DNA of 64,000 nucleotides, from positions 27,785 to 91,784 of the forward strand of contig CALLFZ010000018.1 of assembly GCA_938010045.1 (NCBI GenBank), read 5' to 3'. The notes beneath the pieces are model-generated. The model had not been told where the DNA came from and did no database searches. It saw only the letters and a program-made list of their open reading frames with translations. Positions 3,189-53,059 of this stretch are shown piece after piece (position 1 is the first letter of the stretch; each line of letters starts with the position of its first letter). A program made the translations under genes and the position numbers. Source of the DNA: an uncultured bacterium (GTDB lineage Bacteria > Verrucomicrobiota > Kiritimatiellia > PWTM01).

Positions 3189-3217
3189 TTGACTTTGTGC
3201 TCGAGGGCGGCGATCCT
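3189..3217 (+). promoter_or_regulatory. Promoter of the parvulin gene, leaderless geometry
   Basis: TTGACT at 3189-3194, a 17-base spacer, and GATCCT at 3212-3217. Six bases then separate the -10 box from the ATG at 3224, which puts the expected first transcribed base on the A of the start codon. No Shine-Dalgarno sequence precedes the ATG. The -10 box matches the consensus at only three positions. Confidence 0.45.
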
Positions 3218-3223
3218 ATACCA

Positions 3224-4327
3224 ATGAAAATTTCGTGGCTCCGTTGGATTGGGCACCCGCTCATGATCGCGTGGGCGGGTGTAAGTATGATGGCCGCGGC
3301 CCGCACCAATTCGCCATCGGGCGGGTCGGCGTTGATCCCGGATGATCTGTTCGAACGTCCCGCCGTCGCCGTGGTTGCGCCCACCACGGTGGTCGCGATC
3401 GTGGAAGGCCACACGATCACTCAAGGCGACGTGGAGCGGCTCGTGGAACGGGCGATTGCGATGCATGGCCGCCAGATCCCCCCCGAGCGCCTCGAGGACG
3501 TACGGCGGCAGTTGTCGGTTCAGGCGCGCGAGGAATTGATCGTCCAGACTCTGCTCGAGGCTGAAGCCGAGAAACAGAAGGTCGAAGTTCGCGAGGCGGA
3601 CATCAAGACGATGAAGGAGTCCATTTCGCTGCCGCCAGGCCAAACGCTCGAAGCAGCGCTCGCGACACAGAACATCCCGATGGCCCAGCTGGAGGCGGAC
3701 ATTCGCCGGGAGCTTCGGCGTCGCGCCCTGCTCGAAAAGAACGTTCCGAAGCCGGAGGTCAGCCACGAGGAGGTGAAGGCGTTTTACGAAGGCCAGCCGG
3801 ACTTGTTCCGGGTTCCGGAGACGGTGACGGCGCGGCACATTTTGATCGCCGTGCCCTCCGACGCGACGCCCGAGGAGCGCGCGAAGAAACGGCAGAAGGC
3901 CGAGAAAGTGCGCGCAGAGTTGTTGGCCGGCGGAGACTTTGCGGAGTTGGCGAAGAGGTATTCCGACGATCCGGGCAGCCGCGACCGCGGCGGTGTGTAT
4001 GAGTTTGCGCGGGGCCGAATGGTGCCGCCATTCGAGGAGGCCGCGTTCACGCAGACGATCGGCGAGATCGGACCGCTCGTCGAGACCCAGTTTGGCTACC
4101 ACATCATTCAGACGACGAACCGCTCGCCGGCCCACACGATCAGCCTTGAAGAGGCGACGCCCCGGATTCGACAGCATCTGGAGCGCGCGAAGTGGGCCCA
4201 GGCGGTGGGCGAGTACATTCGGCGGCTTCAGGCGGGCGCGAACATCGTTCGACCCGGCGCCCCACCGATGCCCGCTGCCCCCACCGGCGCCGGAGCGCCC
4301 GGGGTTCAGTTGCCGTCGTCGCGTTAG
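3224..4327 (+). CDS. Secreted parvulin-type peptidyl-prolyl isomerase (SurA/PrsA-like)
   Basis: 367 residues. A signal peptide is visible at 1-27 (MKISWLRWIG, hydrophobic core LMIAWAGVSMMAAA). Next comes a SurA_N-type chaperone region, VVAIVEGHTITQGDVERLV followed by long amphipathic helices rich in Arg and Glu. The rotamase domain starts at TARHILIAVP and continues through FAELAKRYSDDPGSRDRGG, FARGRMVPPFEEAAF and ETQFGYHIIQ, the diagnostic parvulin blocks. The tail is Pro/Ala-rich. The protein should help fold exported or outer-membrane proteins in the periplasm. The start at 3224 is favoured over upstream codons by the signal peptide and by the promoter position. Gene ends four bases into the convergent GT2 gene. 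Confidence 0.85.
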   Translation: MKISWLRWIGHPLMIAWAGVSMMAAARTNSPSGGSALIPDDLFERPAVAVVAPTTVVAIVEGHTITQGDVERLVERAIAMHGRQIPPERLEDVRRQLSVQAREELIVQTLLEAEAEKQKVEVREADIKTMKESISLPPGQTLEAALATQNIPMAQLEADIRRELRRRALLEKNVPKPEVSHEEVKAFYEGQPDLFRVPETVTARHILIAVPSDATPEERAKKRQKAEKVRAELLAGGDFAELAKRYSDDPGSRDRGGVYEFARGRMVPPFEEAAFTQTIGEIGPLVETQFGYHIIQTTNRSPAHTISLEEATPRIRQHLERAKWAQAVGEYIRRLQAGANIVRPGAPPMPAAPTGAGAPGVQLPSSR

Positions 4328-5034
4328 ACCGCCCTGCGCCCGCGGCGCCAGCGGCGCAACATCCGCCAGAATCGGATGGTGTCGGCGAGGGGCCGGATCT
4401 TGCTGCGCTCAGTGCCGTAGATGGTCTGGATGCGGACAGAGTCCATGCGCAGCCCTCGCGCGGCCAGCCGCAGCAGAATTTCGGATTCGGCCGCGAAACG
4501 GTCAGACTCGGTTTCGACGAAACGCAGCAGATCCGTCCGGAACAGCCGATACCCGCACTGCGTGTCGGGCAGGTAGCGCCCCATCTCGCGGCTGAGCAGC
4601 CAGCTCATGAAACGGTTCGTGAGGCGGCGAACGAGCGGCATGCCGCGCTGGTTCCACATGCGGTTGCCAATCAGCACGGGGATGCGTGTTCGCTCGTACG
4701 CCTCAATGAACCGTGGGATCTCGGCCGGATCGTGCTGCCCATCGCCATCGAGCGTGATCACGGCTTCGCAGCCGAGCTCCTCGGCGCGATGGAAACCGGT
4801 TCGCAGCGCCTGCCCCTTGCCGCGGTTTTCGAGATGCCGGATCACCTCGGCGCCGGCGGCGCGGGCGACCTCCGCGGTGCGGTCGGGCGAGCCGTCGTCC
4901 ACGACGATCACGTGCACTCCCTGGGCGCGTGCGGCGGCGACGACGGGGCCGATACGTTCCGCCTCGGCGAAGGCGGGAATCACCGCGCAGTAGCGCGGCG
5001 GGGACGTCGTTTGCCCTGTGGGTGTTTCGTTCAC
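4324..5034 (-). CDS. Family 2 glycosyltransferase, dolichol-phosphate-sugar synthase-like
   Basis: 236 residues with a clear GT-A fold: CAVIPAFAEAERI, VDDGSPD at 45-51 for nucleotide binding, RGKGQALRTGF, and DGDGQHDP at 96-103 holding the DxD metal site. GNRMWNQRGMPLVRR and DTQCGYRLF are typical of the DPM1/polyprenyl-phosphate glycosyltransferase group. There are no membrane segments, so it is a soluble or peripheral catalytic domain. The GTG start at 5034 overlaps the TGA of the acyltransferase gene (GTGA), so the two are coupled; together they suggest work on envelope lipids or glycolipids. The sugar and acceptor are unknown. Confidence 0.8.
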   Translation of the reverse strand: MNETPTGQTTSPPRYCAVIPAFAEAERIGPVVAAARAQGVHVIVVDDGSPDRTAEVARAAGAEVIRHLENRGKGQALRTGFHRAEELGCEAVITLDGDGQHDPAEIPRFIEAYERTRIPVLIGNRMWNQRGMPLVRRLTNRFMSWLLSREMGRYLPDTQCGYRLFRTDLLRFVETESDRFAAESEILLRLAARGLRMDSVRIQTIYGTERSKIRPLADTIRFWRMLRRWRRGRRAV

Positions 5035-8491: not shown

Positions 8492-9394
8492 TCAGCCGGA
8501 CGCTGGCGGTCGCGCCAGAGCGCGAGCGGCCGCGTCCGGGAACAAGTGGCGGCGCCGGTCCGCCGCGCGCGCACCGGCGGGTCGCGGCACAAACAGATCG
8601 CCCGGTCCCAATCCAAGTTCGTGCGCGACGTCCAGACAGTAGTCCAGGCCGCCGATGTCTTCGTCGCGGTTGTTGGTGCCGAACGAAAACTTCGCGCCCG
8701 CCGCATGCGCCAGCCGCAGAAACGCGCGACCGGGCAAACGGGTGCGCCCGTTGATTTCGATCGCGACGCCATTCCGCACCGCCGCGTCGATCACGCGTCG
8801 CATGCGGTCCCGCGTCCACAGCTCGTCGTAGCGGTCGGCCAGCACCGCTGGCAGGTAGGTCGGGTTCGCGAAGAGATCGATCGGCTCGCGTTCGAGGATC
8901 TCAACCGTCCGCTGCACGAGCGTATCCATGAATTCCTCCGGGTGGTCCACGTGCACCTCGGCGGGAATCCACAGTCGCATTCGACGCCCATGGCGGTCGG
9001 TCCAGGTCATCGCATCAGTGAACACATAGTCGAAGCGCGCCACCGTGTCGGGCGACAGCAGCGTCATCCATTCGCGCCCCTCGGCCTGGATCGCCGCGTA
9101 CGCCGCGCCGTGGCGTCGCACCTCGTCGAGCCACGCCAGCGCGGCCGCGTCATTCGTGGTTGGAAACCCGAGACCCACGTTGACCGCGAAGCCGAACTGC
9201 ACGCCCGTGGCGCGAGAGATTTCGAGAGCGCGTTCGATCGTGAGGCCCCCTTTCAGGTGCACATGGAGATTGCGCAGCGGTGTACCGTCGGCCAACAGCT
9301 TCTCGAGTGCGGGATGGGGCGCCGGCGATTCGGCCGCGCCGGTGGCGAGTACGCCGGCGACCACCACCACCGCGGCGTATGCGCGGAACCTCAT
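8492..9394 (-). CDS. Exported PHP-like metal-dependent hydrolase
   Basis: 300 residues. A signal peptide occupies about 1-22 (FRAYAAVVVVAGVLATGAAE). The mature start LRNLHVHLKGGLT carries an HxH pair (His44, His46) as in PHP or amidohydrolase metal sites. A segment VAIEINGRTRLPGRAFLRLA followed by KFSFGTNNRDEDIG resembles the C-terminal metal-binding end of PHP-fold proteins (normally G-x-D-x-H). These enzymes use two or three metal ions to cleave phosphoesters or related bonds. The substrate is not evident. Starts in a 4-base ATGA overlap with the esterase and precedes mscS by 17 bases. Confidence 0.6.
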   Translation of the reverse strand: MRFRAYAAVVVVAGVLATGAAESPAPHPALEKLLADGTPLRNLHVHLKGGLTIERALEISRATGVQFGFAVNVGLGFPTTNDAAALAWLDEVRRHGAAYAAIQAEGREWMTLLSPDTVARFDYVFTDAMTWTDRHGRRMRLWIPAEVHVDHPEEFMDTLVQRTVEILEREPIDLFANPTYLPAVLADRYDELWTRDRMRRVIDAAVRNGVAIEINGRTRLPGRAFLRLAHAAGAKFSFGTNNRDEDIGGLDYCLDVAHELGLGPGDLFVPRPAGARAADRRRHLFPDAAARALARPPASG

Positions 9395-10173
9395 GGGCCC
9401 GAGCCCGCCGCCGGTGCGCCTCGACGGTGCCGCAGAAACCACTCATAGAGCTCAGCATTGTCGTAGGTCGCGGTCCAGGCGTCATGGCCGGTGTTCGGGT
9501 ACACCGTGAACCGCGGATCCGCCCCCGCGCGCTTCAGCGCCTCGACCATCGTTTCGGACTCGCGGAGCGGCACCACCGGATCATCGGCACCATGAAACAC
9601 CCAGACCGGAACGCGGCGCAGCACGTTCGCGCGATACCAGGGGCCGCCGCCGCAAATCGGTGCGATCGCCGCGAACAAGTCTGGGTATTCGGCGGCCAGT
9701 CGCCATGTGCCGAACCCACCCATGCTCAGGCCGGTCACATACATCCGATCTCGATCCACGCGGTGCGCCGCGATCACGTCGTCGAGCAGTGTGCGCAACG
9801 CGAGAATCTGCCGCGCGCTGTCCCACCAATCGTCGGCCGGGCACTGCGGCGCGACCACCAGAAACGGAAACACCCGCCCCGAGGCGATCAGCTTCGGTGG
9901 GCCGTGTTTCTTCACCAACTCGAGATCGTCGCCGCGCTCGCCCGCGCCATGCAGGAACAGCAGCAACGGCCATCGGGTCGGCCCCTCGCGGTCATAGCCG
10001 GGCGGACACGCCAGCCAATAGCGCAGCCGCACCCGCACGCTGGCCGTTCCCTCGAGCACCTTCGGGTCCATCGTCATTGAGTTTGTCATGGTGGAATCGG
10101 CCGCGGCGCCCTGCAGTGCCGCGAACGCCGCGATTGCCCATGCCGCCTCGCAAGCTCGCCAACGTCCGCTCAT
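9391..10173 (-). CDS. Secreted alpha/beta-hydrolase esterase (PHB depolymerase/feruloyl esterase-like)
   Basis: 260 residues with an N-terminal signal peptide (hydrophobic AAWAIAAFAALQGAAA). The fold has PLLLFLHGAGERGDD as oxyanion strand, VTGLSMGGFGTW with nucleophile Ser150, FHGADDPVVP with the acid Asp197 or Asp198, and NTGHDAW with His230, a full triad. The overall pattern matches predicted esterases that deacylate polysaccharides or split polyesters outside the cytoplasm. The ATG at 10173 is set by the end of the similarity and by the promoter six bases upstream. First gene of the operon with the PHP-like hydrolase, MscS and GH140, which supports a role in carbohydrate processing. Confidence 0.75.
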   Translation of the reverse strand: MSGRWRACEAAWAIAAFAALQGAAADSTMTNSMTMDPKVLEGTASVRVRLRYWLACPPGYDREGPTRWPLLLFLHGAGERGDDLELVKKHGPPKLIASGRVFPFLVVAPQCPADDWWDSARQILALRTLLDDVIAAHRVDRDRMYVTGLSMGGFGTWRLAAEYPDLFAAIAPICGGGPWYRANVLRRVPVWVFHGADDPVVPLRESETMVEALKRAGADPRFTVYPNTGHDAWTATYDNAELYEWFLRHRRGAPAAGSGP

Positions 10174-10179: not shown

Positions 10180-10208
10180 AGTGTATCGGCGGCGCGCCCG
10201 TTTGCCAA
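10180..10208 (-). promoter_or_regulatory. Promoter of the esterase-PHP-mscS-GH140 operon, leaderless geometry
   Basis: On the minus strand TTGGCA (10208-10203), 17 bases, TACACT (10185-10180), then six bases and the ATG at 10173. Both boxes match the sigma70 consensus at four positions, and there is no Shine-Dalgarno sequence. The predicted first base of the mRNA is the A of the start codon. Confidence 0.6.
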
Positions 10209-11937: not shown

Positions 11938-12855
11938 CTACATTTCGGGCGGCAGCGCGTCGCGGTACCAAAGGGCGGTCGCCACGCCCACGTACGGCAC
12001 AAGGAACAGGAACCCCAGCCCGCACGTCAAAATGGCGAGCAATCCCCATCCGACGAAGCGAAGTTGAAAACAAATGAACTTCCATATTCGTCCGCGCATC
12101 AGTTGAACGCTGCGGCGAATCGCCATGACCGGCCCCACCTCTGGATCGTCGGCGATGATCCAAAACGTCCAGTAATATCGCAACACGAAGAGCGCAGACA
12201 ACACGCAGATCACGAGTGCGGCGAGGGTTACCGGTAACGACGGAGTTACTCGCGCGCCCAGCACACCCACGACTGCGCCGGTGATCAAGACGATCAACGC
12301 CATCGCGGCAAGGAACAACACAACCATAACCGAGATCAGGATCTGGGCGACCACCCCCACACCCCACCGTCGAAAGCCGATGAACAACCGACTGAGGTGC
12401 GGGGATTCCCCATCGGCAACCGCCAACAGAACCCGCCCCAGTCCAATATTGAGCCACACCATCAGTAGGAACGATGCGGGGGATCCCAAGGGGGCCGCAT
12501 ATCTATCGAGGATTACACGGACACCCACGACCGCCAAGTACAAGGCGCACGCAACCAGCGTAATGCCGAGCATTTTGGCCCAATGACCTTTCAGGGCCTG
12601 ACGCGCCCGGCGCGTGATCTCACCATTCGGCGTTGTGGCCGCCGTTCCACCTCGTGCCGGTGTGGTCACTGGAAACGCGGCCGCCAAGGCCTCGACCGTC
12701 CGCGCCGGACGCCATTCGGGGCCGAAGTCGGGATGCCACACGAGCTGGCCGGGCTGAAGGTGACCCTCCCGCGCCCAGGCCAGCATGTCCTCGGCGGAGA
12801 AGGGGCCGGTGGGCTGTCCGTCCTGTTCGATGTACCATTGACCTATTGATTCCAT
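11938..12855 (-). CDS. GYF (DUF4339)-domain polytopic membrane protein
   Basis: 305 residues. Residues 5-60 form a DUF4339/GYF-like domain (GQWYIEQDGQPTGPFSAEDM, then GHLQPGQLVWHPDFGPEWRP). A Thr/Ala linker follows, then about six membrane helices arranged as in DUF975-type proteins (LGITLVACALYLAVVGV, FLLMVWLNIGLGRVLL, a long Val/Ile-rich pair, and a final FLFLVPYVGVATALWY). GYF domains bind proline-rich peptides in other systems; the bacterial version is not understood. The start codon and that of PrmA lie around a shared CATG, so the two transcripts diverge from overlapping starts if the upstream PrmA ATG is used. Function unknown; probably membrane organisation or quality control with the M50 protease. 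Confidence 0.65.
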   Translation of the reverse strand: MESIGQWYIEQDGQPTGPFSAEDMLAWAREGHLQPGQLVWHPDFGPEWRPARTVEALAAAFPVTTPARGGTAATTPNGEITRRARQALKGHWAKMLGITLVACALYLAVVGVRVILDRYAAPLGSPASFLLMVWLNIGLGRVLLAVADGESPHLSRLFIGFRRWGVGVVAQILISVMVVLFLAAMALIVLITGAVVGVLGARVTPSLPVTLAALVICVLSALFVLRYYWTFWIIADDPEVGPVMAIRRSVQLMRGRIWKFICFQLRFVGWGLLAILTCGLGFLFLVPYVGVATALWYRDALPPEM

Positions 12856-12861: not shown

Positions 12862-12890
12862 ACTAGACCACGTTGACGACCGAAACGCAA
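12862..12890 (-). promoter_or_regulatory. Promoter of the GYF-rhodanese-M50 operon, leaderless geometry
   Basis: Minus strand TTGCGT (12890-12885), 17 bases, TCTAGT (12867-12862), then six bases to the ATG at 12855. No Shine-Dalgarno sequence is present before that ATG, in contrast to the rhodanese gene behind it. Confidence 0.5.
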
Positions 12891-24039: not shown

Positions 24040-24048
24040 GTGCGCGCC

Positions 24049-29319: not shown

Positions 29320-31410
29320 TCAGTCGCAGACCTTCAGGTTTCGGAACCCTGCCGAAGCCCCGAACACCAGGAAGTTCATCCGGGGTTTCGGCAGCGCCAT
29401 GATCTCATGCGCGGCGCGGAGGACGGCGCCACCAACGTACACGGTCGTCTCGGCGCCTTGAAACAGGATCCGGACCGTGTGCCACTGGCCGTTCGCCAGC
29501 TCCAGCGCCGTGCGGGCCAGCGCCTCGGTCTTGGACCGATCCTCTCCGGCAGAGGGGTTTTTCGTGATGGCGGCATAGGATCGCGCGAGTTCCACTCGGA
29601 AGCTGTGCGCCCCGCCGGCGCACTCGATTCGCAGCGAATGCCGGTTGGCGCCAGCAAAACAGATTTGGAACTCGACCGCCCCGTTCGTAATTCCGCAAGG
29701 TGCTCGCAGACAGGCACCTTGGTCGTCGGCGCGGCTCTGTGCTCCCCAAAGGCCGCCGTCGCGGGGGGTCCATGTTCCGCGCACGACCGACCAGGGCGAG
29801 CCGGGCAGTCGGGCGAATGTCTCTTCGTATCGCACCGGACGGTTGAGCGGTGGCAGCGCCGCAGCGGTCGGAGCGCTCGGGGGGGCCTCCGGCGGCAGCT
29901 CGCGGCTGTAACCGCCGTCGCGGTATCGGCGGAGGAGTGCCGCCATCTCGCGGACGATGTCCGGATGCGCGGCGGCCACATCGTTCGTTTCGGCGGGGTC
30001 GCTCGCGAGGTGGTAGAGCTGGGGCCGGTTCTGGTCGGTCCGGGCCCTCACCCCCTTGGCGCTAGCCGCCGGCACTCCTTCGATCCACTTCCACGGTCCG
30101 CGGCGGAGGGCGAAGACGCCATCGGCGTTGTGCTCGATGACATCGTCGCGGCCGGCCGCATCCGCCTGTCCGAGCAGCGCGGGCAGGAAGCTCCGGCTGT
30201 CTTCGGCAGCGACAGAGGGCGGCGGCAGCGGTTCGCCGAGCAGGGCCGCCGTCGTCGCGAGGACGTCCACGAGGCTGATCGTCGCGTGGCAGGTTGTGCC
30301 GGCCGGAATCCGGCCTGGCCAACGCGCAAGAAACGGCACCCGGAATCCGCCTTCCCAGATGTCGTGCTTGCCGCCGCGCAGGTCGCCGTTGATGCGCAGT
30401 CCTGCGCGGTATGCGGCGGTCTGAACGGAATTGGTGTTCGTCGGCCGGACGACGCCGCCATTGTCGCTGGTGAACATGACCAGAGTCGTCCGGGCGGCGC
30501 CCGTCCGATCGAGGGCGTCGAGGATGCGGCCAACGCTACGATCGAGCTCGTGGATCCAGTCGCCGTAGGGGCCGGCGGCGCTGTGGCCGGCGAGGTCGTC
30601 ACTCGGCGTGACCGGATTGTGAACGGCGACGGGGGCGAAGTAGAGGAAGAACGGTTCGTCCGCGGTCCGTTTCTCCAGCCACGCGACGGCCCGATCGGTC
30701 AGCACCTTCATCACGCGCTGGTTTCTGCGTCGGGGCGCGTCCAGACTGAGGATTGGGCCGCGGCCGCGCTCGGTGTCCTCGGGCCCGTAGGTCGGCTGGA
30801 AATCCTCGTCGTCGTCCGCCGGGCCGGGGATCCGCAGACCGGGCGGAATGCGGCCGGCGCGCAATCCGAACACGAAGCGGTTTTCGACGAAGACGCCGGT
30901 GATGTCGCCGTGGTTGGACGGCACGCCGAAATGGTAGTCGAAGCCAATGTCGAGCGGCCCGGGGGAGAGTTCGGCGGCGTAGTCCACGCGCCAGGCGGGC
31001 GAGGAACCGGCGACACCGTAGCCGAGGTGCCACTTGCCGATGGCGGCGGTCGCATAGCCGTGCCGTTTCAGCAACGAGGCCAAGGTCAGGCGGTTGGTCT
31101 CGATGTGCAGCGGCGAGAAGACGCCGAGTACCTCGCTCTTCAGCGCGGTCCGCCAGCAGTAGCGGCCGGTCAGCAGCGAGTACCGCGTCGGCGAGCAGAC
31201 CGACGAGGTCGTCAACGCGTCGGTGAAGCGGCGGCCCTCGCGGGCGAGTCGGTCGATCGCCGGCGTGCGGATCAGCCGGGGGTCGGCGCCGTAACAGCCG
31301 GCGCTGCCGTAGCCGTAGTCGTCCGCGAGAATGATGACGATGTTCGGCCGCTCGGCGGCGGCAAGGCCTGACGCCAGCGCGAGCAGGGTTGATGCGAAGC
31401 GAGCGTTCAT
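29320..31410 (-). CDS. Secreted sulfatase (S1 family) with C-terminal jelly-roll domain
   Basis: 696 residues. Signal peptide at 1-19 (RFASTLLALASGLAAA). The alkaline-phosphatase-fold core starts RPNIVIILADDYGYGSAGCY (metal Asp30, Asp31), has VCSPTRYSLLTGRY with Cys72 in CxPxR, the site turned into formylglycine, then AAIGKWHLG, FTSDNGGVV and GGKHDIWEGGFRVPFLARWP. Residues from about 540 on (EETFARLPGSPWSVVRGTW, GAVEFQICFAG, VRILFQGAETTVYVGGAV) form a separate LamG-like beta-sandwich, probably for glycan binding. It should remove sulfate esters from a polysaccharide outside the cytoplasm; it needs an anaerobic or FGE-type maturase, not seen in this window. Monocistronic. Confidence 0.88.
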   Translation of the reverse strand: MNARFASTLLALASGLAAAERPNIVIILADDYGYGSAGCYGADPRLIRTPAIDRLAREGRRFTDALTTSSVCSPTRYSLLTGRYCWRTALKSEVLGVFSPLHIETNRLTLASLLKRHGYATAAIGKWHLGYGVAGSSPAWRVDYAAELSPGPLDIGFDYHFGVPSNHGDITGVFVENRFVFGLRAGRIPPGLRIPGPADDDEDFQPTYGPEDTERGRGPILSLDAPRRRNQRVMKVLTDRAVAWLEKRTADEPFFLYFAPVAVHNPVTPSDDLAGHSAAGPYGDWIHELDRSVGRILDALDRTGAARTTLVMFTSDNGGVVRPTNTNSVQTAAYRAGLRINGDLRGGKHDIWEGGFRVPFLARWPGRIPAGTTCHATISLVDVLATTAALLGEPLPPPSVAAEDSRSFLPALLGQADAAGRDDVIEHNADGVFALRRGPWKWIEGVPAASAKGVRARTDQNRPQLYHLASDPAETNDVAAAHPDIVREMAALLRRYRDGGYSRELPPEAPPSAPTAAALPPLNRPVRYEETFARLPGSPWSVVRGTWTPRDGGLWGAQSRADDQGACLRAPCGITNGAVEFQICFAGANRHSLRIECAGGAHSFRVELARSYAAITKNPSAGEDRSKTEALARTALELANGQWHTVRILFQGAETTVYVGGAVLRAAHEIMALPKPRMNFLVFGASAGFRNLKVCD

Positions 31411-31416: not shown

Positions 31417-31445
31417 AGTGTTGCGCGCCGCGCCTCGCCGTTCAA
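31417..31445 (-). promoter_or_regulatory. Possible sulfatase promoter, leaderless geometry
   Basis: Minus strand TTGAAC (31445-31440), 17 bases, AACACT (31422-31417), then six bases to the ATG at 31410. The -35 box is good (five of six), the -10 box weak (three of six). Reported because the spacing equals that of five stronger cases in the window. Confidence 0.35.
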
Positions 31446-31623
31446 CTCCGACGTCGCGTCACGCCGTCTGGTTCGCTTCGCGAACCCAGGCAACCCACGC
31501 ACTGGATTGATTGGGTGCGTTGATTCGGCTTCGGAACCGCACGTGCTCGCCACCTGGTCGCGTATGCGCGAAGAGCGTGCAGGGCGCCCCTGGCGGCAGC
31601 GACATTCCCCCTCGCCGTCCGTG

Positions 31624-31652
31624 TTGCCGGCGGCCTCAACCACGTGTAGATC
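31624..31652 (+). promoter_or_regulatory. Possible promoter of the GH43-like gene, leaderless geometry
   Basis: TTGCCG at 31624-31629, 17 bases, TAGATC at 31647-31652, then six bases to the ATG at 31659. No ribosome site precedes that ATG. The -10 box is weak (three of six). This position supports 31659 as the start of the gene rather than later GTG codons. Confidence 0.4.
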
Positions 31653-31658
31653 TGGGCT

Positions 31659-32744
31659 ATGAGATCCATGCCGTTCTCCGCCTTGTGGGCAGGGCGACAC
31701 CCGCGCTCGCGAACGAGGGTGCGGGCTGCCTTACGCTGGATTCAGACGGCGGGATGCGTCTGCGCCATCGGTGGCTCGGCTGAAGTTGCGCCCCCTTCTC
31801 CCGTTCGCAACGCCCCGATGCGGTTCGCCGATGAATCGCGCCTGGGCCGTCCGTTTGCGAAGGACCCATCGGTGATTCGCTTCGGTGACCGGTATCTGAT
31901 GTATGTTTCCCTGCCGCCCTGGAGCCCCAATCGTGCTCCGCCCGGCGCCCCGACCGGCTGGGGCATCGGCATCGCGGAGAGCCACGATCTGATCCGATGG
32001 CGCACAATCGGCGAGGTGGCGCCTGTACAGGCTTGCGAACGCAACGGCATCTGTGCGCCCGGCGCACGCGTGATCGAAGGACGCGTTCACCTCGTGTATC
32101 AGACCTACGGGAACGGCCGTTTCGATGCCATTTGTCACGCGGTTTCCTCGGACGGTCTTCACTTCGAGCGACACCCAGACAACCCAGTCTTTCGGCCAAC
32201 CGGAGACTGGACCGCCGGCCGCGCGATCGACGCCGAACTGATGCCCTTTCGCGGCCGACTGTGGCTCTGGTTCGCGACCCGGGACCCAACGATGACCACC
32301 CAGATGATCGGCGTAGCGAGTGCGGATCCGGCGTCGAACCTTGGCCGCGACGCCTGGAGGCTCGAACACGACGGCCCTGTGCTCGCGCCCGAACTGCCGT
32401 GGGAGCGCCGCTGCATCGAAGCGCCGTCCGTGATCGAGCGACAGGGGCGACTCTACATGTTCTATGCCGGCGGCTACAACAACGAGCCGCAGCAGATCGG
32501 TGTGGCGGTGAGTGAGGACGGCCGTCGGTGGCGTCGCTTGTCCGACCGACCCTTCCTCTCGAATGGCGCCCCGGGCGACTGGAATGCAAGCGAAAGCGGA
32601 CATCCTGCGATGTTCATGGATTCAAACGGGCGCACTTATCTGTTCTTCCAGGGCAATTGCGATCGGGGGCGAACGTGGTGGATCTCATGGGTGGGCGTCG
32701 AGTGGACCGCAGACGGGCCGCGGATCGTACCGTTCGATCGCTGA
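31659..32744 (+). CDS. Five-bladed beta-propeller glycosidase-like protein (GH43/GH130-related)
   Basis: 361 residues. The propeller repeats are visible: KDPSVIRFGDRYLMYVS, GIGIAESHDLIRWRTIG, VHLVYQTYGNGRFDAICHAV, WLWFATRDPTMTTQMIGVAS, EAPSVIERQGRLYMFYAGGY and GHPAMFMDSNGRTYLFFQG. This pattern (D-P-S or E-A-P-S, then Y-x-M-Y/F) belongs to the GH43/62/117/130 superfamily, which hydrolyses or phosphorolyses glycosides. The N-terminal 45 residues include a hydrophobic stretch with WIQTAGCVCAIGGSAEV that may be a signal or lipoprotein signal. It faces away from the sulfatase, 248 bases apart, and may act on the same glycan. Substrate unknown; start is uncertain. Confidence 0.65.
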   Translation: MRSMPFSALWAGRHPRSRTRVRAALRWIQTAGCVCAIGGSAEVAPPSPVRNAPMRFADESRLGRPFAKDPSVIRFGDRYLMYVSLPPWSPNRAPPGAPTGWGIGIAESHDLIRWRTIGEVAPVQACERNGICAPGARVIEGRVHLVYQTYGNGRFDAICHAVSSDGLHFERHPDNPVFRPTGDWTAGRAIDAELMPFRGRLWLWFATRDPTMTTQMIGVASADPASNLGRDAWRLEHDGPVLAPELPWERRCIEAPSVIERQGRLYMFYAGGYNNEPQQIGVAVSEDGRRWRRLSDRPFLSNGAPGDWNASESGHPAMFMDSNGRTYLFFQGNCDRGRTWWISWVGVEWTADGPRIVPFDR

Positions 32745-40893: not shown

Positions 40894-40922
40894 TTCGCCG
40901 ACACACCGCCGACTGCTATCAT
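40894..40922 (+). promoter_or_regulatory. Promoter of the CDF-xer operon, leaderless geometry
   Basis: TTCGCC at 40894-40899, 17 bases, TATCAT at 40917-40922, then six bases to the ATG at 40929. The -10 box matches five of six. No Shine-Dalgarno sequence is present, so the mRNA should begin at the start codon. Confidence 0.55.
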
Positions 40923-40928: not shown

Positions 40929-42194
40929 ATGGCCGGCGAACCCTCGCCATCCCGAACCGCACGACGCCCCGGTCTCCGCGGCTGGACCGGATGGCTGATC
41001 CGGCGCGTGATCGGCGAGGGGCAAGATCCGACGGCAACAGCATCCCGCCAGCGCCTCGGCGAATTCGAAGGATTTCTCAGCGCGGCGGTCAGCGTTGTTC
41101 TCTCGCTCGGAAAAGCCGTGCTTGGACTGTGGTCCGGCAGTCTCTCGTTGATCGCCGACGCCGTGAACAACGCGGCCGACATCGCGAGCAGTCTCGTGAT
41201 CGCGCTGAGCTGCCGGTGGGCGCGGCGTCCCGGCGACCGCCGCCACCCGTTCGGCCACGGCCGGCTCGAGACCGTCGCGACGCTGATCCTCTCATTCTTT
41301 CTGCTCGCGGTGGCGCTGCAAGTGGGCGCCGCGGGGGTGCGGCGGCTCTGGAAGCCGGAACCGGCGGACGCCCCAGCCTGGCTGCTGGCCACGATCGGTC
41401 TCACCATCATGCTGAAGTCAGCGATGAGCCGCTTTGCGCGGGTCGCCGCGCAGGTCTCGCGCTCCACGGTGATCGAGGCGGATTCGTGGAATCACCGCTT
41501 CGACATTGCCGCGACCTCGCTCGTGTTCGTCGCACTGCTCGGCAGCCGGTTCGGCCACCCGCGGCTCGACGGCTGGGCCGCCATCGGCGTGGCGGGGTTC
41601 ATTGCGTGGACGGGCGCCCGCTTCGCCCGTTCGGCCCTCAGCGTGTTGATCGGCGAGAGCGCGGACGATGCTCAGCTGGCTCGCATTCGATCCCTCGCGG
41701 CATCGGTACACGGCGTGCGCGGCGTCCACGACGTGCTCGTGCACTCCTACGGCGACGCGCGCCTGATCTCGCTTCACATCGAGGTCGATGCCGCGCTCTC
41801 GCTGCTCGCTGCCCACGAAATGGCCGAGGAAGTCGAGCGTCGCATTGCGCGAGAAACGGGCGCCAAGGTCGTGGTCCACGCCGACCCGGTCGACCGGGAG
41901 CACCCCGAGTACGAGGCCGCGCGCCGTTCGCTCGACCGGTACACCCGCGATCACGCCGATGTCGCCGGGTTTCATGACCTGCGACTGAGCGGCCCCGCGG
42001 GTGCCGCGAACCTTTCGGTGGATATCGTGCTGCACGCCGAAGACCGCCGCACCGGCGAGCACACCAGGGAAGCGCTGAGCCAACGCCTCTGTGAACGGCT
42101 GCGACACGACGTGCCCGGCCTGCGGCGCATCGATCTCGGCTTTGAAACGGACAGCGGCGCAAGGCACGAGGAACGCCAGAGCTATTCGCCGTGA
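40929..42194 (+). CDS. Cation diffusion facilitator (Zn/Fe/Mn efflux)
   Basis: 421 residues. After a 45-residue basic N-terminus come six membrane helices with DAVNNAAD (Asp77, Asp84; the TM2 metal site), RRHPFGHGRLETVATLILS and DSWNHRFDIAATSLVF (HxxxD of TM5). The C-terminal cytoplasmic domain VRGVHDVLVHSYGDARLISL, HIEVDA and a further ferredoxin-like segment is longer than in typical FieF. CDF proteins exchange metal ions for protons and protect the cytosol from excess metal. Which metal is exported cannot be told. The TGA overlaps the GTG of the recombinase gene. Confidence 0.87.
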   Translation: MAGEPSPSRTARRPGLRGWTGWLIRRVIGEGQDPTATASRQRLGEFEGFLSAAVSVVLSLGKAVLGLWSGSLSLIADAVNNAADIASSLVIALSCRWARRPGDRRHPFGHGRLETVATLILSFFLLAVALQVGAAGVRRLWKPEPADAPAWLLATIGLTIMLKSAMSRFARVAAQVSRSTVIEADSWNHRFDIAATSLVFVALLGSRFGHPRLDGWAAIGVAGFIAWTGARFARSALSVLIGESADDAQLARIRSLAASVHGVRGVHDVLVHSYGDARLISLHIEVDAALSLLAAHEMAEEVERRIARETGAKVVVHADPVDREHPEYEAARRSLDRYTRDHADVAGFHDLRLSGPAGAANLSVDIVLHAEDRRTGEHTREALSQRLCERLRHDVPGLRRIDLGFETDSGARHEERQSYSP

Positions 42195-44165: not shown

Positions 44166-44194
44166 TTTTCCCCCGCCGGGCCGCACGCTATCCT
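44166..44194 (+). promoter_or_regulatory. Promoter of the methyltransferase-PAP2 operon
   Basis: TTTTCC at 44166-44171, 17 bases, TATCCT at 44189-44194, then nine bases to ATG 44204. The -10 box is four of six; the -35 box is weak. A leader of about three bases is predicted, with GAGCGG the only purine-rich stretch before the ATG. Confidence 0.4.
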
Positions 44195-44203: not shown

Positions 44204-45079
44204 ATGCCCGCATGTGACTACGAGCTGCTCGATTCGGGCGATGGGCGCAAACTCGAACGGTTTGGTCCACTCGTGCTCTCGCGGCCCGCGGCCCAAGCCG
44301 TGTGGCGTCCCTCGCGGCCGCCCGACGTTTGGGCCGCGGCGGACGCCACCTTCGACCGCGAACAGGGTATGGCTTGGAAAATCCGGACTCGCTTACCGGA
44401 CCTGTGGACCATCACGGTGGAGGGACTGCGATTCCGACTGAGCGCAACCGATTTCGGCCATGTGGGCCTATTCCCCGAGCAGCGCGAGATGTGGCGATGG
44501 ATTCGCCAGCGCATGGGCACGGCCCGGCGCGGACCCGACGAGCCGACGCGATCGCTGTTGAATCTGTTTGCCTATTCCGGCGGCGCCACACTCGCGGCGC
44601 TCTCCGCGGGCGCTGAGGTCTGCCACGTGGACGCCTCACGCGGCATGGTGCAATGGGCTCGTGAGAACGCCGCACTCAACGACCTGGCCGGAGCGCCGGC
44701 ACGGTGGATCGTCGAGGACGTGCACAAGTATCTGCACCGCGAACATCGGCGGGGGCGGCGCTACCACGCGATCGTGCTCGACCCTCCCACGTTCGGCCGC
44801 GGCGCCTCAGGCGAGGTGTACAAGATCGAACGCGACCTCATGGTCACGCTGGACCTCTGCCGCGCCGTGCTGGCGGATGACCCGCTATTCGTGCTGCTCT
44901 CCGCTCATACGCCCGGCCTGACCCCCGTGGGCCTTGCCAACGCTGTGCGCCAGACATTTCGAGATCTCGGTGGAGCGATCGAGTGCGGCGAACTTCTGTT
45001 GACCGGCACGCGTGATGTGATGCCACTGCCCAGTGGAGCATGGGCCCGCTGGACCCCAGAAGAATCCCCCGCCGAATGA
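44204..45079 (+). CDS. RlmI/RlmK-type SAM-dependent methyltransferase
   Basis: 291 residues. The SAM motif SLLNLFAYSGGATLAALSAG, the acidic VCHVDASRGMVQWARENAAL and the catalytic DPPTFGRG with VYKIERDLMVTL place it in the RlmI/RlmL/RlmK family of 23S rRNA base methyltransferases. It lacks the PUA domain of RlmI and the THUMP domain of RlmL, so target choice must rely on the N-terminal part (YELLDSGDGRKLERFGPLVL). Whether it acts on C5 of cytidine or N7 of guanosine is unknown. It ends in an ATGA overlap with the PAP2 gene. Confidence 0.72.
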   Translation: MPACDYELLDSGDGRKLERFGPLVLSRPAAQAVWRPSRPPDVWAAADATFDREQGMAWKIRTRLPDLWTITVEGLRFRLSATDFGHVGLFPEQREMWRWIRQRMGTARRGPDEPTRSLLNLFAYSGGATLAALSAGAEVCHVDASRGMVQWARENAALNDLAGAPARWIVEDVHKYLHREHRRGRRYHAIVLDPPTFGRGASGEVYKIERDLMVTLDLCRAVLADDPLFVLLSAHTPGLTPVGLANAVRQTFRDLGGAIECGELLLTGTRDVMPLPSGAWARWTPEESPAE

Positions 45080-45759: not shown

Positions 45760-45857
45760 ACCCACTCGCCGGCTCGTTGTGCACACAGAGGCCCATGGCA
45801 GACCGGGTGGTTCCGGAGACCACCATGGGCACGGTGGTGAACCGAAAGGATATCGCG

Positions 45858-46499
45858 ATGAACAAGACCTCATACCTCGTGATCACCGGCCTGGTGATCG
45901 GTGCACTGATCGGATCGGCGGCGGCCGGGGAACGGAAAGGCGGCCGCCGTATACGTCGAAACCGCCTTGGGGCCGAACGAGGAGAACCGCCGGCCGCCGT
46001 CTCCGAGCGGCCCTCGGCCGCCACGGCGGAGCGCCCGGCCCGCGAGACTTCGCCAGCGGCGCGTCCAGACTCGGTCGCTTCCCGCTGGGCGGAGGTTCTC
46101 CAACGGTTCGACAAGGACGGCGACGGCCGACTAAACGAGGAAGAACGCGCCGCCGCGCGCGCCGCCTGGCAGGCGCAGGGTGCTGAGCGCCCCGAGATGC
46201 TGCACGGCCAGCTCGTCCGCCGCTTCGACAAGGACGGCGACGGCAAGCTGAATGACGAGGAGCGCAAAGCCGCGTGGGAGGAATTCCAAAAACGTGAAGG
46301 CCCCCGGGCCGACGAGTTTCGCGCCCGCATCCTCCAGCGCTTCGACAAGGACGGCGACGGCAAGCTGAACGAGGAGGAACGCGCCGCCGCGGAAGCGGCC
46401 ATGCGGGAGATGCGCGAGCACCGGGGTCGTCACGGCGAGGGCCGAAACGCTTCGGACACCGCCCCCGCGGACGCACCCAAGGTCGGCCCGACGATCTAA
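45858..46499 (+). CDS. Exported EF-hand protein with three 39-residue repeats
   Basis: 213 residues. Signal peptide at 1-23 (SYLVITGLVIGALIGSAAAG), then a basic and Ala/Pro-rich linker. Three calcium-binding loops follow at 85-96, 124-135 and 163-174, each DKDGDG(R/K)LN(E/D)EE, spaced exactly 39 residues (117 bases) apart and nearly identical in DNA. Each loop has Asp at positions 1, 3 and 5 and Glu at 12, so calcium binding is expected. The third and partner hands are not split into classic pairs. AAAGGAT precedes ATG 45858, and a strong terminator follows the gene. Function beyond calcium binding is unknown. Confidence 0.8.
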   Translation: MNKTSYLVITGLVIGALIGSAAAGERKGGRRIRRNRLGAERGEPPAAVSERPSAATAERPARETSPAARPDSVASRWAEVLQRFDKDGDGRLNEEERAAARAAWQAQGAERPEMLHGQLVRRFDKDGDGKLNDEERKAAWEEFQKREGPRADEFRARILQRFDKDGDGKLNEEERAAAEAAMREMREHRGRHGEGRNASDTAPADAPKVGPTI

Positions 46500-49244: not shown

Positions 49245-50594
49245 TCAGCCCGCGGACTTGCGCAAACGGCCACCGTGCGTACTGCGGTCCATGGACGCGA
49301 TGGGCTCGCCGCGCAAACCATCGGCATCGGCGGCCGTCACGCGCACGCGCACGACGCCAGCCTCGTCTGGGCGGGCCGGCAGGATCGTCTCAACCGCGCA
49401 GTATCGCGCGCAGTGGCCCGCCGCGCGGCCGGTCGCGGGGGACCATCGTTCCACCAGCAGCTCCACCTCGCGCCCGACCCACCGGCGGTGCCAGGCCAGG
49501 GCCAACTCTCGCCCCAGCGTGCGCAATTCCGCGGCCCTGCGCCGGATCTCAGGCGCAGCCAGCCGCCCCGGCAGTGCCGCCGCTGCAGTGCCCGGCCGCG
49601 CCGAAAACGCAAATACATGCATCCGGCTGAATCCGACCGCGCGGCACAGCTGAACCGTTGCGTCGAAATCCGCCGGGGTCTCGCCCGGGAAGCCGGCCAT
49701 GACATCGGTCGTGATCGCTGGCTCCTCGAGCGCGGCGCGAGCGCGGGCCACCGCCTCGACGAAATCGGCGACGGTATAGCGGCGTCGCATGCGGCGAAGC
49801 ACGGCATCGGAACCGGACTGGAGCGGTAAGTGCAGGTGGGGGGCCACGTTCGGATGCGAGCGCATCGTGTCGAGCAGACGGTCGGTGAGCTCCAGCGGGT
49901 GCAGGCTCGAAAGCCGCAGCCTCCGCAAACCCCGCACCCGCGCCACCGCCGCCACGACGTCCGCCAGTTCCTCATCGCGATCGCGCCCCCACAGCCCGAT
50001 GCTCACTCCGCTGAGCACCACCTCCGCGTGCCCCACCCGCACATATCGTTGAACCTCGGCCACGATGCTCTCGAGCGGACGGTCGCGCGGCGGTCCCCGC
50101 AGCCGGGGCACGATGCAGTAGGCACAACCGAGATCGCAGCCGTCCTGGACCTTCACGAACGCGCGCGCATGGCCCGTGAACCGACGGGGTCGCTCGGCCG
50201 CCTCGGGATGCGTGGGCGCACCCAGCAGACCATCAAGCGCGGCGCGCAGCGACGCCGACCAACCCGGCCCCGCGGGCACGGTGGCGTCACAGCGCACATG
50301 CTCCGGCAGCAACCCCGCCCCACAGCCGCTCGCGACCACGAGCGTGCCCGGGCGGTCAAGCTGCGCAAGCCGCCGGCGCGACTCCGCCAGCGCCGTCGAG
50401 GTCACCGCGCAGGTATGCACCACCGCGACGTCGGCCCGCTCGCCCTCGCCCGCCCCCCGCAGGCCCCGCCGTTCCAGCTCGCGCTCAATTTCGCGGGCTT
50501 CGCACTGGTTCACCTTGCAGCCGAAGACGTCCACGATGTAGGTCAACGGCCTCCGTGACGGGGAGGGGGTAGCCAAGTCAGTCGGCGAAAACAT
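49245..50594 (-). CDS. mtaB: MtaB-type tRNA methylthiotransferase
   Basis: 449 residues. The N-terminal UPF0004 domain has Cys26 (FGCKVNQCE), Cys62 (HTCAVTS) and Cys91 (SGCGAG) for one iron-sulfur cluster; the radical SAM domain has CDLGCAYC with Cys153, Cys157 and Cys160. HLHLPLQSGSDAVLRRMRRR and VMAGFPGETPADFD follow, and a TRAM-like end. The CKVNQ sequence is the MtaB mark, which places a methylthio group on t6A37 of tRNA. Overlaps the YdjY-like gene by 17 bases and precedes gcvPA by 44. TRAM is somewhat diverged. Confidence 0.9.
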   Translation of the reverse strand: MFSPTDLATPSPSRRPLTYIVDVFGCKVNQCEAREIERELERRGLRGAGEGERADVAVVHTCAVTSTALAESRRRLAQLDRPGTLVVASGCGAGLLPEHVRCDATVPAGPGWSASLRAALDGLLGAPTHPEAAERPRRFTGHARAFVKVQDGCDLGCAYCIVPRLRGPPRDRPLESIVAEVQRYVRVGHAEVVLSGVSIGLWGRDRDEELADVVAAVARVRGLRRLRLSSLHPLELTDRLLDTMRSHPNVAPHLHLPLQSGSDAVLRRMRRRYTVADFVEAVARARAALEEPAITTDVMAGFPGETPADFDATVQLCRAVGFSRMHVFAFSARPGTAAAALPGRLAAPEIRRRAAELRTLGRELALAWHRRWVGREVELLVERWSPATGRAAGHCARYCAVETILPARPDEAGVVRVRVTAADADGLRGEPIASMDRSTHGGRLRKSAG

Positions 50595-51882
50595 GGATCA
50601 CGGGATGGGTGCTCATCAGCGGTGCGACGAATCGCATGAGCTCACCGTAGCTCATCGCGCCGGGCGCGAACACGACGATCACCGGCAGACCCGGCCCGTG
50701 CTCCGTGAGCTGGGCGCGCAGCTCTTCCGGCGTCGAGGCGCGGTACTCCGTTGTCCACCACTTGGGCTCGTCGGTCAGGATGTCACGGCCATGCTGCACG
50801 CTCATCAGCACCGCGCTCCATCCTCCCCCGTCGGCCGCGCTCAGGTGCAGTTCCCAGGGCTGCGATGGCCGCTCGTCCCGCCGCCGCAGCGATGGCTCCG
50901 GATTGAGCGCGCGGTAGTACAGTTGCCCCGGCGCCGGCGGCTCGATCCGCACAGCGGACAGCTCCGCAAGGCGCGCGACCGTCTCGCCGAGCGAACGGAG
51001 GTGCCGGACCGGCGTGCTCGGCTCAATGCGAACGTCCAGGTGCGCATCGAACCCTGCGGAACCGAACTCACGCAATCGGCGTTCGACCTCGGCGAGGCCA
51101 GCCACCGGAGCCTCCGCTCCGCCTCTCGCCTCTAATCGAATGGCCGGCCGATCCTCCTCAACGCCCAGGGTCAGTCCCAACTCCGAGACGCGTGGCCGAC
51201 CGTCCGGCCTGGGTTCCGGCCGCAGCACCACGGTGAGCGGCTGCCCCTTCGCCCACACGTAGTTCGAGTTCGCGATCTGGTAATCGTAGAGCGCGCTCTG
51301 GCTGCCACGCCGCGGAATGTCGAGCACGGTCGTCTCGAGATTGAACGCGCTCGCGATCGAGTTCGGCTCCACCTCGTCGGCCGCGTAGACGGTACCGGTG
51401 CCGTTCTCGGCCGGCACCCGAGTGGAGCCGACGAAGACTAGGCCGTCTCTGGGCAGTGATTCGCCGGTGCGCGTATCCACGAGCGTGTCCTCGAATCGCA
51501 CGCGTCGCGGAGGATGGTCGGGGGCAGAGGGATCGCGCCACTCGAACTCCGCGATCACGCGCTCGCCGCGCGGCCAAAACCGAAGAGCCTTCGGGTCCAC
51601 CGGACGACCCGCCGGAACGCCGATGAACTCGAGCGCACGGTGAACATCGCTGGGCCGCGCAAGCGAGACCGCGATCGCTTCATAGTCGTGGCCGCTGTTC
51701 GTGGCGATCAGAAAAAACTCGCAGAGCGTGCCGCCCGCGATGCCCGTGGCGCGGGCCTCCACCCGCACCTCGCGCAACCGTCGGTCGGCGGTCACGAACG
51801 GCGCGTGCCAGATGGCCGGCGGGCCCTCCGCGGGGAGCACCGCCAGCGCGCACATCCCAGCCAGACCTAACGCCCACATCAT
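50578..51882 (-). CDS. Exported YdjY-like protein, function unknown
   Basis: 434 residues. MMWALGLAGMCALAVLPAEG is a signal peptide. The region after it (VRVEARATGIAGGTLCEFFL, ATNSGHDYEAIAVSLARPSD) matches YdjY-like domains that occur in planctomycetes and verrucomicrobia. The middle contains RVRFEDTLVDTRTGESL and VFVGSTRVPAENGTG. Residues about 265-434 form a second domain with ExSTP-type beta strands and end in a conserved-looking LMRFVAPLMSTHPVIHVF. I do not recognise an active site. First gene of the operon with mtaB, gcvPA and VanZ. ATG 51882 follows GGAG and the upstream promoter. Confidence 0.6.
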   Translation of the reverse strand: MMWALGLAGMCALAVLPAEGPPAIWHAPFVTADRRLREVRVEARATGIAGGTLCEFFLIATNSGHDYEAIAVSLARPSDVHRALEFIGVPAGRPVDPKALRFWPRGERVIAEFEWRDPSAPDHPPRRVRFEDTLVDTRTGESLPRDGLVFVGSTRVPAENGTGTVYAADEVEPNSIASAFNLETTVLDIPRRGSQSALYDYQIANSNYVWAKGQPLTVVLRPEPRPDGRPRVSELGLTLGVEEDRPAIRLEARGGAEAPVAGLAEVERRLREFGSAGFDAHLDVRIEPSTPVRHLRSLGETVARLAELSAVRIEPPAPGQLYYRALNPEPSLRRRDERPSQPWELHLSAADGGGWSAVLMSVQHGRDILTDEPKWWTTEYRASTPEELRAQLTEHGPGLPVIVVFAPGAMSYGELMRFVAPLMSTHPVIHVFAD

Positions 51883-51919
51883 CGTCGCGATCTCCGTGTT
51901 TCGCGCATCGACGCCGGGT

Positions 51920-51948
51920 ATCGTATCGTGCCGTTGCACGTTCACCAA
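51920..51948 (-). promoter_or_regulatory. Promoter of the YdjY-mtaB-gcvPA-VanZ operon
   Basis: Minus strand TTGGTG (51948-51943), 17 bases, TACGAT (51925-51920). Three and four consensus matches. The leader to ATG 51882 is about 30 bases and contains a GGAG. The divergent queG ATG (51965) has TATGAG at 51953-51958, exactly six bases upstream of it, but no clear -35 box. Confidence 0.45.
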
Positions 51949-51964
51949 TCGGTATGAGGACGGC

Positions 51965-53059
51965 ATGACTGGCCGGCCATCCGCGAACGACCTCGTGGAG
52001 GCCGCGCTCGAGCACTTCGACGCGGCGGCGGTCGCGCTCGCCGACGGCCCGTGGCGCGAAGCCGCATGGAGCGCGTGGTTCAGCGCCGGTTGCCACGCCG
52101 ACATGGGCTGGCTGGAACGGACGGCGTCGCTGCGCGCGCGCCCGGACACCGCCGCCTCAGGCGCGTTCGCCTGGCTCATCGTGGCCCGCGCGCTGCGCAC
52201 CGAACCGCCCCCCCTCGCGCTCTGGCAAGATCCGCGTCGCGGCCGCGTCGCGCGGTATGCCTGGGGGCTGGATTACCACCTCGCGATGCGCGAGCCCCTG
52301 GCCCGGCTCGCCGAGGCCATCCGGCGCGCGGCGGGCCTGACCGCACCTCCCCGCGGGTTCGTGGACACGGCGCCAGTGCCGGAAAAGGAACTCGCCGCAC
52401 GCGCCGGCCTCGGCTTCGTGGGACGCAACACGCTCGTGATCACGGACCTCGATGGCTCGTGGTTCAGCCTCGGCGGTCTGGCGCTGCCATGGCGGCCGGC
52501 CGGCGCAGCGCCGTATGACCCGGCCACCGCTGCCCATGCGGCAGACCGCGGATGCGGCACCTGCCGGCGATGCCGTTCGGCGTGCCCCACGGGCGCGCTC
52601 GTGGAGGACCGCATGCTCGACGCGCGCCGCTGCATTGCCTGGGCGACGATCGAGTGCCGCGGAGAGATCCCCGAAACGTTGCGCGGCCGGCTCCACCGCT
52701 GGCTCGCCGGCTGCGACCTGTGCCAGGAGTGCTGCCCATGGAATGGCCGCCGGCCGGACACGCGAACGCCTCGGACGGCATTCGACCCCGAACAGCACGC
52801 GCCCCTGCTCGTGGCGGCGCTCGCGCTCTCGCCCGACAGTTTCCGCAAACGCTACGGCAGCTCGGCCGTCGCCCGGCTCGGCTGGACGCGCTGGATCCGG
52901 AACGCGCTCTGCGCCGCGGCAACGGCTCCCGCCGATGCGGATGTGCGCGCGGCGGTCCGGCGACATCTCGATTCCTCGGATGCAGTGGTTCGCGCGACGG
53001 CCCTCTGGGCCCTGCGCCGCCTCGATGCCGGCAGCGATGAGGAGTCGGACAGCCCCTAG
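51965..53059 (+). CDS. queG: Epoxyqueuosine reductase
   Basis: 364 residues. GFVDTAPVPEKELAARAGLG contains the catalytic Asp134 and FVGRNTLVI the cobalamin side. Two 4Fe-4S sites follow: CGTCRRCRSACPTGA (Cys197, 200, 203, 207) and CDLCQECCPW (Cys250, 253, 257). A HEAT-like tail (AAVRRHLDSSDAVVRATALW) is present as in longer QueG proteins. The enzyme makes queuosine from epoxyqueuosine at position 34 of certain tRNAs using vitamin B12. The start ATG 51965 is preferred because upstream residues are antiparallel to the YdjY promoter region. No other queuosine genes are nearby. Confidence 0.9.
   Translation: MTGRPSANDLVEAALEHFDAAAVALADGPWREAAWSAWFSAGCHADMGWLERTASLRARPDTAASGAFAWLIVARALRTEPPPLALWQDPRRGRVARYAWGLDYHLAMREPLARLAEAIRRAAGLTAPPRGFVDTAPVPEKELAARAGLGFVGRNTLVITDLDGSWFSLGGLALPWRPAGAAPYDPATAAHAADRGCGTCRRCRSACPTGALVEDRMLDARRCIAWATIECRGEIPETLRGRLHRWLAGCDLCQECCPWNGRRPDTRTPRTAFDPEQHAPLLVAALALSPDSFRKRYGSSAVARLGWTRWIRNALCAAATAPADADVRAAVRRHLDSSDAVVRATALWALRRLDAGSDEESDSP

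Follow-up and report, generated by a model that had tools for sequence, protein, structure and literature searches.

The 64,000-nucleotide stretch analyzed here (the window; positions 27,785 to 91,784 of contig CALLFZ010000018.1, assembly GCA_938010045.1) comes from an uncultured bacterium of the Kiritimatiellia (PWTM01), a lineage whose phylum we take to be Verrucomicrobiota in the wider GTDB sense. The draft genome that holds it comprises 3.2 Mb in 49 contigs and is 98% complete, and the GC content of the window is 65–69%. Five of its genes, encoding an alpha/beta-hydrolase (the esterase below), a GYF-domain protein, a sulfatase, a GH43-like protein and a CDF cation-efflux protein, are each preceded by -35-like and -10-like boxes so close to the start codon that transcription would begin on the codon itself (Table 1). 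A first-pass annotation of the window had listed these five and a parvulin gene as having a spacer of exactly 17 bases and exactly six bases between the -10 hexamer and the ATG. The analysis below indicates that the window genes very probably belong to a genome-wide class with housekeeping-type boxes (-35 TTG, spacer near 17, -10 TANNNT) lying 6–10 bases before the start codon, whose members are predicted to be leaderless or nearly so.

To locate these boxes genome-wide, we defined d as the number of bases between the end of the -10 box and the start codon, and called genes with a home-made, self-trained finder that is blind to promoters. It yielded 877 genes in 1,214,476 bases of the genome, of which 848 were classed by context as first (431), mid (105) or internal (312) genes. 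A peak at d = 6 over controls had been set as the test beforehand, and such a peak was found: TANNNT stands at d = 6 in 24 of the 536 first and mid genes, compared with a mean of 2.7 and a maximum of 7 over d = 15–69 (Poisson P = 2e-15), and in none of the 312 operon-internal genes. With the window excluded, the count is 23 of 498 first and mid genes. Among the 431 first genes, TANNNT occurs 1, 2, 1, 2, 2 and 1 times at d = 0 to 5, 19 times at d = 6, and 7, 6, 7 and 6 times at d = 7 to 10; the mean over d = 15–69 is 2.45, and counts beyond d = 10 lie mostly near it. Distances below six are at or under background, and d = 7–10 forms a shoulder in excess, so that the proposed distance of exactly six survives as a peak and not as a rule. 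This sharp rise at d = 6, with no count exceeding background at shorter distances, is expected if the RNA begins about seven bases past the -10 box and the start codon has to be on the RNA.

The boxes are accompanied by a -35 element. Sites chosen by their -10 box only (n = 24, 827-kb subset) have T in 14, T in 16 and G in 15 cases at positions -35, -34 and -33, respectively. Exact TTG occurs at a spacer of 16, 17 or 18 bases in 4, 7 and 2 of the 24 d = 6 sites of the 536-gene set; 17 is therefore the commonest spacer, without being invariant. A promoter matrix built from 25 sites, all outside the window, recovered the same -35/17/-10/6 geometry at a hit threshold of 6. The geometry also holds on data withheld from training: over ten two-fold splits, the held-out halves gave 11.7 hits per 268 genes, compared with 1.3 at positions 12–47 bases further up, and 0.05 hits per 156 operon-internal genes. 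Dinucleotide shuffles gave 0.4 scores above 6, compared with 23 of the 431 first genes, although the matrix had been trained on 20 of the 23 and the held-out halves are the fairer test. When d = 6–10 is allowed, 43 of the 431 first genes score above 6, whereas seven control windows further upstream average 10.1 (range 6 to 22), which leaves an excess of about 8%, or one first gene in thirteen. The class is modest in size, as a mixture estimate at d = 6 assigns to it 6.6% of first, 5.0% of mid and 0% of internal genes.

Pfam was run on 24 of the 25 class genes outside the window (the remaining one spans stretches), and 22 of the 24 products have a domain at E 1e-5. They include MutL, the glycine cleavage T protein, ketopantoate hydroxymethyltransferase, MsrA, quinolinate phosphoribosyltransferase, a polyprenyl synthetase, a pyridine nucleotide-disulphide oxidoreductase, a SpoU methylase, glycosyltransferases and a sulfatase. 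Domains begin at residue 3 (Pyr_redox_2, in a gene with the poor box TGGAGT), residue 5 (GCV_T) and residue 9 (Pantoate_transf), which leaves little room for a later start and supports these three start codons.

When the window was scanned with the matrix (ATG and GTG codons, both strands, outermost 45 bases excluded), six scores exceeded 6. Five are the esterase, GYF/DUF975, sulfatase, GH43 and CDF starts, and the sixth (score 8.7) is codon 50637, 19 codons before the stop, in the 3' end of gene 50578–51855. The parvulin gene, sixth of the first-pass set, was rejected as a member: its sequence TTGACT-17-GATCCT-6-ATG has no TANNNT and scores below zero at d = 6 and lower still at d = 7–11. Among the matches listed from named genomes, the parvulin has its closest relatives in a single-cell genome of uncultured origin (57% identity) and in a Lentisphaerae metagenome-assembled genome (52%); further listed matches come from Lentisphaerae, Verrucomicrobia and Kiritimatiellia metagenome-assembled genomes at 35–40%, and one is labelled delta proteobacterium. 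Three genes had been put forward as near cases. The RlmI-like gene at 44204 is upheld at d = 9, the cyclophilin gene at 44057 is weak (score 4.8 at d = 7), and queG was rejected, as its TATGAG lacks the final T and scores 1.2. All NCBIfam matches of the RlmI/RlmK-like protein (frame from 44015) fall below their cut-offs.

Table 1. Genes and putative promoter boxes in the window, with scores from the matrix trained outside it
Feature	Position	Strand	Remarks
Alpha/beta-hydrolase (esterase/PHB-depolymerase-like) gene	9391..10173	-	ATG 10173; Pfam Peptidase_S9/Abhydrolase; score 15.1, d = 6; predicted leaderless
Esterase -10 box TACACT	10180..10185	-	six bases before ATG; sequence
Esterase -35 box TTGGCA	10203..10208	-	spacer 17; strict whole-genome pattern match C18:37955-37992
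GYF domain + DUF975 protein gene	11938..12855	-	ATG 12855; Pfam GYF_2, DUF975; score 6.9; predicted leaderless
GYF gene -10-like TCTAGT	12862..12867	-	TCTATT in relative G001; sequence
GYF gene -35-like TTGCGT	12885..12890	-	spacer 17; sequence
Sulfatase gene	29320..31410	-	ATG 31410; Pfam Sulfatase; score 9.0; predicted leaderless; divergent from GH43
Sulfatase -10-like AACACT	31417..31422	-	sequence
Sulfatase -35 TTGAAC	31440..31445	-	spacer 17; sequence
GH43-like gene	31659..32744	+	ATG 31659; Pfam Glyco_hydro_43; score 6.4; predicted leaderless, weakest of five
GH43 -10-like TAGATC	31647..31652	+	sequence
GH43 -35 TTGCCG	31624..31629	+	spacer 17; sequence
CDF cation-efflux gene	40929..42194	+	ATG 40929; NCBIfam TIGR01297 above cut-off; score 9.7; predicted leaderless
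CDF -10 box TATCAT	40917..40922	+	d = 6; sequence
CDF -35-like TTCGCC	40894..40899	+	spacer 17; sequence
RlmI/RlmK-like methyltransferase gene	44204..45079	+	score 7.2, d = 9; near-leaderless, predicted 3-base leader
RlmI-like -10 box TATCCT	44189..44194	+	nine bases before ATG; -35-like TTTTCC at 44166-44171
Parvulin gene	3224..4327	+	Pfam Rotamase; matrix score -1.2; not supported as class member

To follow the boxes in relatives, we took, at each orthologous locus, the best score over candidate starts and d = 6–10. The CDF gene has a match in six of eight family relatives, with scores of 15.4 in G001 (d = 9), 11.3 in G002 (d = 6, GTG start), 9.5 in G004 (d = 7) and 10.2 in G007 (d = 6). G005 has TATGGT at d = 6 with a score under the threshold (4.8), and no box was found near the start in G006, so that the box lies 6–9 bases before the start in five of the six relatives and exceeds the threshold in four. 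The CDF starts of the five relatives with a box fall within seven residues of that in the window. Outside the family, the scores are 10.3 in G013 (d = 8), 6.5 in G014 (d = 10), 2.2 in G029, 1.7 in G030 and -4.0 in G012, and the score is above 6 at 6 of the 11 CDF loci examined. The esterase box recurs in G001 (10.7, d = 7) and G003 (9.8, d = 7). The GYF box recurs in G001 (6.9, d = 6) at the same residue and in G004 (8.5, d = 6) four residues on, and the G006 gene scores 5.8 without TANNNT. For the sulfatase, the one counterpart in the fetched G001 DNA is a paralogue of 33% identity. As a control, window genes were scored together with their orthologues in the fetched G001 and G002 DNA (34 pairs): when our gene scored above 6 its orthologue did so in four of five pairs, compared with 2 of 29 otherwise (Fisher p 0.0015). 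One of those four pairs is the operon-internal gene 22706, which we took as chance even though it scores 6.1 both here and in G001; the site of gene 16541 (d = 10, score 8.4) was likewise taken as chance, being absent in G001.

The G002 orthologue of the esterase (L213) has a -10-like TAGGAT 24 bases before its ATG, with GGAG between them. By its sequence, the esterase looks leadered in G002 yet leaderless in our genome, G001 and G003.

Whole genomes were searched with the strict pattern TTG-N20-TANNNT-Nd-ATG. It occurs 3 times at d = 3, 21 times at d = 6 and 14 times at d = 9 in our genome. A reversed-pattern control (1 match, compared with 21, at d = 6) was set aside for having exaggerated the sharpness of the peak, the shifted d = 3 and d = 9 patterns being fairer. 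Seven genomes of our family together have 21 matches at d = 3, 139 at d = 6 and 74 at d = 9, and 13 for the reversed pattern at d = 6. For the phylum, the search covered 387 genomes at d = 6 and d = 9, and 71 of them, from eight groups that we picked after seeing the d = 6 and d = 9 results (at most ten genomes each, in listing order), also at d = 3. Counts at d = 6 exceed those at d = 3 in 67 of the 71 genomes and those at d = 9 in 56. The sums at d = 6/9/3 are 218/129/65 in f25, 95/77/22 in f9, 183/126/32 in f24, 343/136/74 in f18, 419/278/102 in genus g77 of f46, 390/174/174 in genus g83 of f44 and 29/33/13 in f48. The excess of d = 6 over d = 3 is present in all eight groups, weakly in f48 (p 0.02); that over d = 9 is clear in six groups (p 0.0014 or less), f9 (p 0.19) and f48 (p 0.70) being the exceptions. 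The reversed control in the same ten f48 genomes gave 29 matches, equal to the d = 6 count. The d = 9 counts imply that very short leaders belong to the picture. One f48 genome, G143 (genus g100), has 14 strict matches at d = 6, 1 at d = 9 and none reversed, as if the leaderless mode had been kept or regained inside f48.

We also asked how the class relates to Shine-Dalgarno sequences, which the first-pass annotation had described as missing from most of its genes. A GGAG or GAGG core lies at -18 to -4 in 151 of the 312 internal genes, in 156 of the 512 other first and mid genes, in 48 of the 109 first and mid genes with TANNNT at d = 20–59, and in none of the 24 class genes. The zero is forced, since the box itself excludes the core: when TAGGAT was placed at -12 to -7 of the 512 other genes, a core was left in 23.

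Several observations weigh against the leaderless interpretation. Since the box occupies the Shine-Dalgarno position, the missing core is not independent evidence for it. The assembly yielded no 16S rRNA of this genome, and with it no anti-Shine-Dalgarno end. Strict TANNNT is present in only two of the six main boxes first proposed (TACACT of the esterase and TATCAT of the CDF gene), and several of the others are weak (TCTAGT, AACACT, TAGATC). The distance is blurred, with 14 strict matches at d = 9 next to the 21 at d = 6 in our genome. A second, smaller rise of TANNNT in the first genes at d = 33–35 (6 each, compared with the mean of 2.45) would reflect promoters with leaders of about 27–29 bases, and an ordinary leader is therefore probable for many first genes. 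The gene finder sets two of the five window starts downstream of those first annotated, the esterase by 102 bases and GH43 by 159 bases (at 31818). Conservation is patchy: the esterase box is found in two of six relatives (none in G002, G005, G006 and G008), the GYF box in two of six (none in G002, G003 and G008), and the GH43 box is absent from the G001 orthologue.

The displaced starts bear on the possibility that the promoters are real and that the ATG at +1 was mis-chosen, the true start lying downstream on a leadered mRNA with a Shine-Dalgarno sequence. Start calling is uncertain in GC-rich genomes, and GH43, with its later coding-based start and its boxless orthologue, fits such an error. 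However, such promoters would lie before in-frame and out-of-frame ATGs equally, and near first-gene starts (827-kb subset, all candidate starts) a box at d = 6 precedes 14 of 515 in-frame ATGs compared with 0 of 327 out-of-frame ATGs; for GTG the counts are 7 of 596 and 2 of 554. The boxes are linked to in-frame start codons. Some class proteins have their domain onset within a few residues of the start, and the GYF start in G001 and the CDF starts in the five family relatives with a box lie at or near the residue of our own starts, as described above. We regard this explanation as unlikely for the class. Chance, that is, a few AT-rich hexamers near start codons picked out of a GC-rich genome, would account for the looseness of the hexamers first listed and for the failure of parvulin and queG, but is refuted for the class by the d = 6 peak and by the held-out halves. 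Moreover, the matrix that had never seen the window returned the previously listed genes as five of its six hits there. Chance is scarcely credible as an account of the class, and may yet account for individual weak sites.

The TA-rich element at -12 to -7 could instead be a translation signal, such as an A/U-rich stretch where ribosomal protein S1 binds mRNAs that have leaders. A/U-rich biases ahead of start codons have been discussed as possible sites for S1 (PMC5397173), and six S1 domain matches fall in one open frame of our genome. A translation signal, however, would not bring TTG at a 16–18 base spacer, would not be absent from all 312 internal genes, and would need no fixed TANNNT frame rising abruptly at d = 6. 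This explanation therefore appears very improbable, and we return to leaderless expression as the preferred reading.

Transcription and translation would then proceed as follows. A housekeeping-type sigma factor would read the -35 and -10 boxes, and RNA synthesis would begin at the A of the start codon or at most four bases upstream. The ribosome would bind the 5'-terminal start codon of the leaderless mRNA without Shine-Dalgarno pairing; on leaderless mRNAs of other bacteria, 70S particles bind the 5'-terminal start codon (PMC9031893). Operon-internal genes would rely on Shine-Dalgarno pairing, and given the cores found in 151 of them, both modes of expression would operate side by side.

Leaderless expression of this kind is already known, is common in Actinobacteria and Deinococcus, and is seen in the wider phylum. 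Akkermansia and the present lineage presumably both fall within Verrucomicrobiota in the wider GTDB sense; in the NCBI taxonomy Akkermansia is placed in Verrucomicrobiota, and Lentisphaerae form a separate phylum, Lentisphaerota. Cappable-seq of mouse cecum placed 10% of 886 high-confidence transcription start sites of Akkermansia muciniphila at start codons, with -35 and -10 elements upstream as in our genome (PMC4782308), and the species is counted among Shine-Dalgarno-scarce organisms that retain CCUCC (PMC10783764). The first-pass statement that such a class is not commonly described in organisms of this kind is therefore only partly right. Leaderless starts were measured in Akkermansia and are predicted here. 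In Deinococcus-Thermus, TANNNT lies a few bases before open reading frames and worked as a promoter in tests, an added -35 element raising expression (PMC12340547). The same small, specific distance is found here, with its peak at d = 6 and shoulder to d = 10; by contrast, about 30% of open reading frames on average, and all species analyzed, have it there (PMC12340547), compared with about 5–8% of first genes here, and our consensus includes the -35 TTG. The TA-led genes of the high-GC Actinobacteria have the same geometry, as in Streptomyces phoRP with TAACCT six bases before the ATG, but belong to another phylum and make up more than 20% of genes (PMC3160421). Of the 953 bacterial genomes in that survey (Zheng 2011), 207 were reported to have leaderless genes; its text contains none of the words Verrucomicrobi-, Lentisphaer- or Planctomycet-, and neither Verrucomicrobia nor Lentisphaerae is among the groups named. 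As background, and not as a definition, it notes that Sulfolobus leaderless genes are single or operon-first and not operon-internal (PMC3160421), and the distribution here is the same (24 of 536 first and mid genes compared with 0 of 312 internal genes). The literature searched, which covers few subscription journals, held no report of leaderless expression for this lineage, and among the matches listed no title indicated a leaderless study of Lentisphaerae or Kiritimatiellae.

A few further observations concern the arrangement of the window. The sulfatase and GH43 genes (31410–31659) form a divergent pair with leaderless-type boxes on both members, and a second such pair, sharing only an 89-base gap, lies on contig C4 of our genome (L010:5866-5956). 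The fusion of the GYF domain to DUF975 (11938–12855) is matched over both parts in several family relatives. The DUF3187 gene (14638–15639, minus strand) has TAGAGT 11 bases before ATG 15639 together with GAGGAG, and its G001 orthologue has a box scoring 13.9 at d = 7; it is possibly a border case between the leaderless and leadered modes. An NqrA-like gene heads a same-strand gene run at 20119–27035, perhaps an Nqr operon (NqrA alone was tested). Both NCBIfam names drawn for the EF-hand protein at 45588–46496 lie far below their cut-offs and are unusable.

Taken across relatives, leaderless expression might be an old, phylum-wide second mode of Verrucomicrobiota/Lentisphaerota, kept at the CDF gene for the age of the family, switched to leadered elsewhere (as for the G002 esterase) and mostly gone from at least one large family, f48, a scenario we offer tentatively and lean slightly against. 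Together, these results extend a known but under-recognized mode of expression to an uncultured lineage near Lentisphaerae. A simple rule, with the box at -12 and the start at 0, would correct gene starts such as that of the esterase. Because the phylum sample contains groups with a strong signal as well as f48 with little or none, a comparison of relatives could show how leaderless expression is gained and lost.

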